Source: an uncultured Candidatus Saccharibacteria bacterium (GTDB lineage Bacteria; Patescibacteriota; Saccharimonadia; Saccharimonadales; Saccharimonadaceae). From it: 36,433 nucleotides of DNA. The number at the start of each line of letters is the position of its first letter. Positions within the stretch are counted from its first letter, which is position 1. Location of the stretch: positions 1 through 36,433 of the forward strand of contig CANBER010000009.1 of assembly GCA_947367795.1 (NCBI GenBank), given 5' to 3'. The notes under the pieces are model-generated. The model did not search any database. It was given only the letters and a program-made list of their open reading frames with translations, and had not been told where the DNA came from. A program made the position numbers and the translations under genes. This document shows positions 17,901 through 19,855 of the stretch, piece by piece.

Positions 17901-18374
17901 CTCCATGAAGTCCTTATCCATCGTCCGGTATGCCCCCTTAAAATCCACCCAACGCCCAATCCGATCAATCGTCCCCTCCCACGTCTCCGAGTTCGCCACC
18001 ATGCTTTCCTTCGCTTTCAGGATGTAATCTTCTAATGACCATTTTGTACCGATTTCGCGCCGATCAGTAATTCCCAGTTGCTTCTCCACAAAATTCTCCG
18101 CCGGCAAACCATGACAATCCCACCCCCAGCGCCGCTCCACTCGCTTCCCCCGCATCGTCCAAAACCGCGGCACTGCATCCTTCACGATACTACTAAGCAA
18201 AGTCCCATGATGCGGCATCCCCGTGATAAACGGAGGCCCATCATAAAACACATACGATTCATCGACCGGTCTCTGTTCCACCGATTTCTCAAAAGTCCGA
18301 TTCTTCTTCCACCACTCCACCAACGCTTTTTCATATTCTGCCGCTTTGCGTCGCTGACCTGCTTTGTATTTCAT
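14973..18374 (-). CDS. ileS: Isoleucyl-tRNA synthetase (type 2-like) with two palindromic inserts
   Basis: Charges tRNA-Ile in the cytoplasm. Class I motifs: HHGT (55-58, the HIGH box) and KMSKS (about 773-777), with TTPWTLPAN and VEYVGQVRAWFYYVHT as expected for IleS. At 1133 residues it is longer than I would expect. The excess appears at two places in the editing-domain region where the DNA is strongly palindromic: about residues 215-263 (before VYLLAWTTTPW) and about 390-416 (before DTYTVLGGDFV). Both stay in frame. GGCGGGAG lies 6 nt before the ATG and is part of a probable T-box structure (18375-18577). The gene is monocistronic, ending at 14973. Confidence 0.95.
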   Translation of the reverse strand: MKYKAGQRRKAAEYEKALVEWWKKNRTFEKSVEQRPVDESYVFYDGPPFITGMPHHGTLLSSIVKDAVPRFWTMRGKRVERRWGWDCHGLPAENFVEKQLGITDRREIGTKWSLEDYILKAKESMVANSETWEGTIDRIGRWVDFKGAYRTMDKDFMESVWWAFKTLYEAGKIYEGRKVLMYDTKFATPVSKSEVTMDNDAYQEVTDPSVYVKFKLTSESLAHILSEPAASRPVVTGETCFARSPLVAKSSDKNLSQTLASESKSIKVDRFVPRVYLLAWTTTPWTLPANMALAVNPEMEYCAVKISKEEEVLVSPKSGKKVEPDEIVEGLKEGQDSDWDLMTEYAREILILAKSRLEAVLKDVDYEVIREGIKGGELIGLTYEPLCGSGPLFDGKGVQPPKASLSAKSEVNSDFAKKKDTYTVLGGDFVSDSDGTGIVHIAPAYGEDDYKLAQEHEVDFVDVLDEYGYYDAKTTEWLHSIGVRDTDERGIEIWAGNKFIAKCLEEKGVVWKIEYIKHEYPFNPRSKQRIMYRAFPSWFFDVQGQKPLMLAQNENVNWFPEYLKHGRFEKNIEQAPDWNLSRDRFWATAMPVWKGEPVFDDTVESVHPVKVFGSYAELAEFTKCDKDDEGVYLEDYHLPWVDQIKFDAWVSEDGEIKPYFALTKEDEEEKEWDEYHFTRIEKVLDCWFESGSMPFAQLHYPFENKEKFERNYPADFIVEYVGQVRAWFYYVHTVNTALAEVGGFGEAAQARTEKNAFKNVITTGTLAGNDGRKMSKSLGNYTDPNVLMDQYSADALRFLLLSSPVLSGEDFALTDKDVSDVNRKLAMIWNTYDFFVTYAEVDNYETPDGHWQGELKNPLDRWIIARLHELKRDVTEGMEEYNIPKALASVLPFVDDLSNWFVRRSRRRFWKSGDSDDKAEAYWTLWKVLTKLAQVLAPFTPFLAEELWQNLTGDWNPENSVHLTDWTEPGEIDEEILAQMARVREVINEGLALRMRKSESETQVKVRQPLRKLVYAGEELPEWGIEIIKDEVNVKAVEQGEESWIDKEITEELAEEGWTRELIRTVQSARKKAGLNVDDRIRLSVNVAVPEKWQAMLKTEVLAEELGQEGNYAYDEIVKVGGKNLTISLEKLN
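17127..17207. repeat. Palindromic element in ileS, second site
   Basis: Two hairpins in the coding sequence: 17127-17139 with 17145-17157 (13 bp with one G-T pair, 5-nt loop) and 17180-17191 with 17196-17207 (12 positions, two mismatched, 4-nt loop). They cover residues about 390-416 (PPKASLSAKSEVNSDFAK), a region that looks extra compared with typical IleS. Confidence 0.65.
17587..17732. repeat. Cloverleaf-like palindromic element inserted in ileS
   Basis: Outer arms 17587-17626 and 17693-17731 pair at about 30 of 40 positions. Inside are two further hairpins: 17628-17633 with 17650-17655 (6 bp), and 17659-17685 (11 bp with one bulged base, 4-nt loop). The element is read in frame as about 48 residues (SLAHILSEPAASRPVVTGET begins it) between conserved IleS segments. 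Confidence 0.75.
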
Positions 18375-18577
18375 AAAAACTCCCGCCGTTCCCCGGCAAT
18401 TAAATCCATCCTTGCCGTTAGAACCCTGGCGGGCGGTACCATCTAACTTCTCGTCTCAGCTGCACCCATTACAGCCTCAACCAGCTCTCTCTTTCCCTTT
18501 ACGCAGGCATACGCACGATTCTACTAAGACTAATCCGTTCTTTCGTGAGCTCGCGGTCGATCTCCGCTCAAACGCTT
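18375..18577 (-). promoter_or_regulatory. Translational T-box leader of ileS (ultrashort stem I type)
   Basis: Minus-strand leader of about 200 nt. A short stem-loop near the 5' end (18547-18569) exposes AGATCGA, containing the Ile codon ATC (18559-18561) as specifier. Further on the T-box core TGGTACCGCC lies between GTTAGA (18442-18447) and TCTAAC (18417-18422), which pair perfectly to form the antisequestrator. The CCGCCCGCC just after the core (18428-18436) can instead pair with the Shine-Dalgarno GGCGGGA (18381-18387). Uncharged tRNA-Ile binding would thus free the ribosome site. There is no T-run terminator, so control is probably translational, as in actinobacterial ileS T-boxes. Confidence 0.8.
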
Positions 18578-18583
18578 TACCTC

Positions 18584-18612
18584 ATTATAGCACATTTTCC
18601 TCAAAATCTCCA
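18584..18612 (-). promoter_or_regulatory. ileS promoter
   Basis: Minus strand TGTGCTATAATG, TATAAT at 18584-18589; the -35 (TGGAGA) is weak, so the extended -10 probably compensates. Back to back with the plus-strand promoter at 18641. Confidence 0.65.
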
Positions 18613-18742: not shown

Positions 18743-19855
18743 ATGTCACAAACTATTACTACACCCGCCGAATTCAGGATTTACTTTCACGAGCTCGTCA
18801 AACCGACGCATCCCACCTACCGTCTCTATCCGCGCCTCAATTGGCGCACCAAAAACACGTCTTCCGCTTGGAAACGTCACGGATCAGAGCATTTTCAGAC
18901 CTGGGCCAAATCACGACTCTGGAAAGAAATCCGTTTCATGCTCTTCTACCGCATCAAAGGTCCCTCAAAATTTAAGATTCGCACCTGTTACCATTTGCGC
19001 TATGTTCCGTATCTCTACGATTTACATACTGGAGATGGCTACGAGCTTGGGCCAAACAGCGCGTTTTATTTCATCGGACAAATTTCCGCTACCCGTAAGA
19101 TACCCCGTGCTAGGCGCGGAGAGAAAGATCGCCTCAGTATCGTCATCATGAACTTCAGCGTCCCTCAAGCTCAAAAAATGTATTTCGAGCTTCCCGAGAT
19201 CTTAGATCAATCCGTCACCAGCCATGACCGACAATGTCCAGTTTTCTATCCTGGTCATGTCAACACGACTATTCATATGATCTATGATCCTAATCTCGGC
19301 GTCGATCGACAGCTCAATATTGTCACGCGAATCACTGAAACTTCTGAACGTTTCGTCCGACCCTTCACTCCGCCTTATCTCCGTCACAACAACTTTATCA
19401 CGTGTCAGGATAAGCGCTACGAACTCGGCTACGAAATCCCCCAGCTCAATGCTTCCGAGCTTCACGAAGGTGCTACACTGCAACTGTCAGTTGTAGAGCA
19501 TTATTACCAGAAGGCTACCGGTCAGCTCGTCGCCGATCAATCCAACATCTGTTTTCAGATCATCCTGCACGTCGACCGGCTCAATCCGCACAATCCTTCC
19601 GGTTCCAGCTATCAGCTCATCGGCCACATCGTACAGGCAATCCTGCCTCCATTCAAGACCGATGCCAGTCCTGATTTTCTGCCTCTCGAGCCAACCGAGA
19701 GCCTTGAAGCGCTCTTCGCCAGTCAAAATTACCTACAAATCGAAACCGACGAGGATTGGGGGCAGATCACTTATCTGCTCGGCAGAAACACACCGCAATT
19801 TGGCAGTTATCCTTATCGTATCCGGCCCATTGCTTCTAGTCGGGTCGAAAGATAG
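18743..19855 (+). CDS. Unknown 370-residue orphan protein
   Basis: No family recognised. The start MSQTITTPAEF at 18743 is set by AAAGGAGG 8 nt upstream; the frame is open 15 codons further without a site. It is rich in aromatic residues, His and Arg (RLYPRLNWRTKNTSSAWKRH; HLRYVPYLYDLHTGDGYELG) and looks beta-rich, with no signal peptide or membrane segment. A promoter of the same design as that of the 13414-14796 gene precedes it, and an intrinsic terminator follows, so it is an independent unit. The two orphans share promoter design and flank ileS, but their sequences do not look homologous by eye. Confidence 0.75.
   Translation: MSQTITTPAEFRIYFHELVKPTHPTYRLYPRLNWRTKNTSSAWKRHGSEHFQTWAKSRLWKEIRFMLFYRIKGPSKFKIRTCYHLRYVPYLYDLHTGDGYELGPNSAFYFIGQISATRKIPRARRGEKDRLSIVIMNFSVPQAQKMYFELPEILDQSVTSHDRQCPVFYPGHVNTTIHMIYDPNLGVDRQLNIVTRITETSERFVRPFTPPYLRHNNFITCQDKRYELGYEIPQLNASELHEGATLQLSVVEHYYQKATGQLVADQSNICFQIILHVDRLNPHNPSGSSYQLIGHIVQAILPPFKTDASPDFLPLEPTESLEALFASQNYLQIETDEDWGQITYLLGRNTPQFGSYPYRIRPIASSRVER

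Follow-up and report, generated by a model that had tools for sequence, protein, structure and literature searches.

The leader of ileS in the window, the whole 36,433-nucleotide stretch analysed here, is confirmed by sequence comparison as a T-box riboswitch with an ultrashort, codon-in-loop Stem I. The host is a gut Saccharibacterium with an 860-kb genome. The riboswitch lies directly 5′ of ileS, at 18577-18375 on the minus strand; the element itself spans 162 nt (18577-18416), the output region then extends to 18375, and ileS begins 41 nt downstream of the element, with its ATG at 18374. This T-box probably controls ileS translation by burying the Shine-Dalgarno (SD) sequence, and the ultrashort ileS T-box is common in Saccharibacteria. 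A sequence-only reading had proposed such a translational switch here, and all the pieces that it described are present at that place and on that strand (Table 1).

Table 1. Coordinates of ileS and of the features of its leader in the window
Feature	Positions	Strand	Basis
Promoter: TGGAGA, 17-nt spacer, TATAAT preceded by TG (extended -10)	18584-18612	-	10/12 consensus matches, sequence only
Stem I: possible base helix AGC/GCU, GA/GA flanks, 4-bp hairpin	18551-18576	-	Sequence and alignment
Specifier codon AUC (Ile)	18559-18561	-	Same loop position in 27/27 core-bearing ileS leaders
Stem II: CACGA (18547-18543) with UCGUG (18518-18514)	18514-18547	-	Sequence and R2 alignment
Stem IIA: CG (18513-18512) with CG (18503-18502)	18502-18513	-	R2 alignment and covariation-analysis helix
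Purine-string motif: GAGAG, Stem III, AA	18448-18489	-	Sequence; motif definition PMC7583486
Antisequestrator: helices A1 and A2 around the bulge	18417-18447	-	Sequence and covariation
Sequestrator hairpin: CCCGCC (18433-18428) with GGCGGG (18387-18382), inner helices between	18382-18433	-	Free fold, window and four same-type relatives
Candidate Shine-Dalgarno GGGAG, five bases 5′ of ATG	18380-18384	-	Sequence; overlaps GGCGGG
ileS, isoleucine--tRNA ligase, 1133 aa	14973-18374	-	TIGR00392, 734 bits, cut-off 621

Since the extended -10 promoter ends at 18584, the predicted transcription start falls at about 18577, where the element begins. The isoleucine codon ATC, claimed for a short 5′ hairpin loop, lies in the 7-nt loop AGATCGA of the Stem I hairpin. 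The 4-bp stem of this hairpin (GCGG/CCGC, 18567-18553) can form in all 26 aligned sequences, with double changes at three of its four pairs. The base helix of Stem I is paired in only 64-69% of alignment cells, and the GA/GA flanks appear to be K-turn-like. Stem II covaries along its whole length (93% of cells paired, double changes at 5/5 pairs) and contains the S-turn strand AGUAGAA at 18525-18519. Of the IIA/B pseudoknot, the Stem IIA half is seen. The string RRRxG-Stem III-AA is a T-box discriminator feature (PMC7583486); within it, Stem III is longer and more irregular in the window than in relatives. The proposed core between GTTAGA and TCTAAC is the bulge TGGTACC (18441-18435), flanked by the two strands of helix A1 (18447-18442 and 18422-18417). 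Helix A2 (GCCC/GGGT) has a G-U wobble at its base, a position known as the sensor of the tRNA 3′-aminoacyl group (PMC7583486). A1 is paired in 100% and A2 in 98% of cells, and both partners have changed at 8 of their 10 pairs.

The same genome encodes a tRNA-Ile with the anticodon GAT, the discriminator A73 and an encoded CCA. The specifier AUC is complementary to its GAU anticodon, and the bulge UGGU to its ACCA end; isoleucine, the specifier amino acid, is also that of the downstream gene on the same strand. Three other leaders have the bulge UGGC or UGGA instead of UGGU (L096, L092 and L095, in genomes G052, G048 and G051). A rule that ties the fourth base of the bulge to the tRNA discriminator was rejected, as it fails in G052, where UGGC and A73 are mismatched; tRNA-Ile was not found in G048 and G051.

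Two covariance models were used in the searches. Model R1 includes the window, and the independent test was therefore model R2, built from 18 leaders that all belong to other families of the order. R2 matched the window at exactly 18577-18416 with 67.4 bits and an E-value of 8.8e-16 (E-values from both models are rough), and this was its only match at E≤10 in the 36-kb window. In the R2 alignment all modelled pairs of the window are standard ones, and its specifier, bulge, S-turn and wobble are preserved. The Rfam model RF00230 scored the window element at 27.6 bits (E 6e-4 in 1.2 kb), under a gathering threshold of 93 that is a curation cut-off and no biological feature; in the 860-kb genome, the ileS leader was its sole match. 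Because the Rfam score is so far under the cut-off, routine annotation misses this T-box, and the threshold was not reached in any searched relative of the order. RF00230 matches of 14-20 bits at L103, L104 and L105 were set aside as chance: the T-box core is absent, and L103 and L105 lie inside long open frames.

Comparison of the ileS leaders of Saccharibacteria bore out the conservation of core and specifier. The outcome named as refuting the sequence-only reading, a lack of both a T-box model match and conservation in relatives, was not obtained. Leaders were fetched from 54 relatives, and 26 of them, plus the window, carry the core with AUC in a 7-nt loop. In the alignment of 26 sequences, 87% of cells pair and 28 of 34 pairs have changed on both sides; the covariation score of 0.574 is above every control (0.238 for shuffles, at most 0.142 for slid partners). 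MAFFT shifted the genus by one column in Stem II; alignment A1 therefore understates this stem, which is seen well in alignment A2, where the genus is omitted. The z-score of the leader fold is weak (-1.7), and covariation was used as evidence in its place. Searches of T-box-free leaders of the genus with R2 gave no match, except one 14-bit fragment at an end, and R1 had no match in nine ileS loci (L368-L374, L376 and L377) of Verrucomicrobiota, Kiritimatiellales, Spirochaetales and similar groups.

The weak z-score and the low Rfam score would be expected of a chance resemblance in an AT-poor leader, but the conservation and covariation tests have already refuted this explanation, and its probability is negligible: the genus-free model R2 gives an E-value of 9e-16, covariation is strong, the genome holds the matching tRNA-Ile, and the element has the same position 5′ of ileS in many families. 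It is also very improbable that the T-box is a decayed one, which still folds after losing the ability to switch. The irregular Stem III of the window and the readiness with which the lineage loses the element would agree with decay, but every pair modelled by R2 is intact and the specifier, bulge, S-turn and wobble are retained.

As a T-box, the leader would act on ileS through its 3′ hairpin. GGGAG is the only SD candidate of the window ileS, and its Gs sit in GGCGGG, which is perfectly complementary to CCCGCC, a part of A2 and its loop. A CACCTCC-like 16S rRNA end occurs in the genome as ACCTCC, on contig 19. By sequence and folding, the hairpin that buries the SD competes with the antisequestrator: the free fold of the window is the sequestrator, at -27.9 kcal/mol versus -21.4 kcal/mol for the forced antisequestrator, energies that omit the tRNA, pseudoknots and the ribosome. 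The pairing of an anti-SD strand with GGCGGGA, as first proposed, stands for six base pairs within a longer hairpin, with the final A unpaired. It recurs in relatives, as the sequestrator is the free fold in all five SD-type leaders (window, G014, G024, G821 and G823). GGGAG is common to these five, where it is created by an extra G, and the stretch with a separate ribosome-binding site (RBS) is missing from them. Sister species carry GGGAUUUU, with an AAGGAG-type RBS further on in three of four. The homologous hairpin of G757, G323, G824 and G386 includes a compensatory change (CCCA/UGGG in two) and has AUUUU after it, then, in G323, G824 and G386, the separate RBS; from its sequence, this hairpin is a terminator.

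In the window, the hairpin is followed by AGUUUUU and immediately by the ATG, with no second RBS, and a scan reports a terminator-like site there. Some transcription termination is therefore possible, and residual termination is the main rival to translational control. In its full form, the rival reading takes the hairpin of the same T-box (CCCGCC...GGCGGG-AG-UUUUU) as mainly a transcription terminator that releases the RNA at the start codon, with SD burial secondary or both contributing. We consider this unlikely: the homologous hairpins of the four sister species are terminators and the window retains five U, but the U-run begins two bases past the stem, it is interrupted in G024 (L298; GUUGUU), and the only SD lies within the stem. 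With the SD in this position, the hairpin would block initiation with or without a transcription stop. Translational control is favoured because the SD type has GGGAG and no separate RBS, and its U-run is broken in G024.

Under translational control by SD burial, Stem I would offer AUC to the GAU anticodon of tRNA-Ile, with Stem II and the S-turn as a brace. The ACCA end of an uncharged tRNA-Ile would pair with the bulge UGGU and stabilise helices A1 and A2; the antisequestrator thus formed would occupy CCCGCC and expose GGGAG, and ileS would be translated. When tRNA-Ile is charged or absent, CCCGCC would pair with GGCGGG, the SD would be buried and ileS translation would drop.

In IleS trees, the 12 species of the clade closest to the window are a mixture of SD-type, terminator-type and leaderless, T-box-free ileS genes. 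Branches with good support require the SD label to have changed at least three times, and part of these changes may be losses in favour of a leaderless start; between SD and terminator, the change may have gone either way. A TATAAT-like box lies 3-12 bases 5′ of the ileS ATG in 17 of 25 T-box-free leaders of the genus and in no T-box leader. It is present a few bases before the ATG in the close T-box-free relatives L354, L332, L301 and L401, where, as judged from the sequence, a leaderless ileS start replaces the T-box. IleS lengths in close relatives range from about 960 to 1280 aa, and the matches of most relatives skip residues ~220-345 of the window protein. Beside the leader, a divergent 370-aa open frame at 18743-19855 on the plus strand has a strong promoter (TTGACT-17-TATAAT); an NCBIfam search with it gave no match.

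Most relatives examined have the same elbow-less sensor followed by a transcription terminator. At 48 of 95 distinct loci with an NNAUCNN loop, the terminator takes its 5′ strand from Stem III or its flank, 5′ of the antiterminator, an arrangement that the window does not have. These nested terminators, among them L083 (G037), L085 (G039), L094 (G050) and L087 (G041), have species-specific pairing of up to 16 bp. At 38 dereplicated loci, pairing with the locus's own strand averages -12.9 kcal/mol, versus -7.5 kcal/mol for mismatched species, and ranks in the first three at 25 loci. A nested Stem III terminator in the window was rejected, its own pairing being only 25th of 38, and none is seen in window-type leaders. 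In the sorting of the 95 loci, the class OTHER is largely an artefact of short A1-3′ hairpins, which are invisible to the duplex test. In the nested form, Stem III and the terminator would compete for one strand; known T-boxes need Stem III to bind the 3′ end of the tRNA (PMC7583486).

Transcriptional T-boxes generally need a long Stem I (PMC7583486), and the Saccharibacteria leaders with nested terminators have a Stem I of only 4 bp. We lean towards the view that the elbow-independent sensor works with terminators as well as with SD hairpins despite the long-Stem-I rule, that the output has been switched repeatedly among close relatives between terminator, SD hairpin and leaderless start, and that many lineages have a terminator with Stem III as its 5′ strand, which would make Stem III, and not the antiterminator, the helix that is exchanged.

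The presence of a T-box in this genome had been expected to be notable; the T-box is real, but it is no curiosity of one genome. R1 matched 261 of the 392 genomes searched in the order and 38 of the 174 searched in the genus; in a draw of 379 genomes across the phylum it matched 146. Many of the surveyed genomes are incomplete MAGs. Those relatives that have names are Candidatus Saccharibacteria, and animal guts are the source of many of them. RF00230 matched 124 of the 379 phylum genomes at E≤1e-4; 13 exceeded the cut-off, and so some Patescibacteria T-boxes are within the reach of Rfam. Beyond the order, the sampled matches lie 5′ of ileS, valS (L265, L279, L281, L297), glyS (L266) and two kinds of aspS, nondiscriminating (L267, L270, L284, L285) and bacterial (L275). 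Where readable, the apical-loop codons outside the order fit their genes: GUC before valS (L279, L281, L297), and GAC (L267, L284, L285) or AAC (L270) before nondiscriminating aspS.

In seven leaders, at least one gene lies between the T-box and ileS (L094 in G050, L087 in G041, L348, L352, L328, L330 and L340), so there the switch probably controls an operon. One leader (L314:1203-1457) matches the model without the UGGUACC bulge and is perhaps a decaying T-box.

Translational ultrashort ileS T-boxes are known in Actinobacteria (PMC1262725), and structures of the Mycobacterium and Nocardia ultrashort T-boxes have been described (PMC7583486, PMC10651847). The window element resembles these, as they are described, in its gene, in the AUC specifier in a short apical loop, in the absence of a long distal Stem I, in the Stem II with an S-turn and, by sequence and folding, in a hairpin that buries the SD and excludes the antisequestrator. 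It differs in its host, a Saccharibacterium, and in its SD hairpin, which has the CCCGCC of A2 and its loop as 5′ strand and is homologous to the terminators of close relatives. With the terminator-type ileS T-boxes of other Saccharibacteria it shares the ultrashort sensor and the gene, whereas those leaders end in a U-tract and usually have a separate RBS. The transcriptional T-boxes of Firmicutes (RF00230) likewise have a specifier, Stem II, a UGGN bulge and A1/A2 helices and control aminoacyl-tRNA synthetase genes; in contrast to the window element, their Stem I is long and binds the tRNA elbow, and their terminator has a separate RBS downstream. Among the open-access papers searched, which cover part of the literature and so give no proof of novelty, none connects T-box riboswitches to Saccharibacteria, Patescibacteria or CPR.

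Little work has been done on gene regulation in Saccharibacteria and other Patescibacteria, and the window offers a concrete and testable amino-acid switch before an essential gene. The lineage is a natural series in which one sensor occurs with a terminator, with an SD hairpin, or replaced by a start-codon promoter; with this series, it can be tested on matched sequences whether the length of Stem I dictates how control is exerted. The Saccharibacteria group thus records how such RNA switches get rewired.
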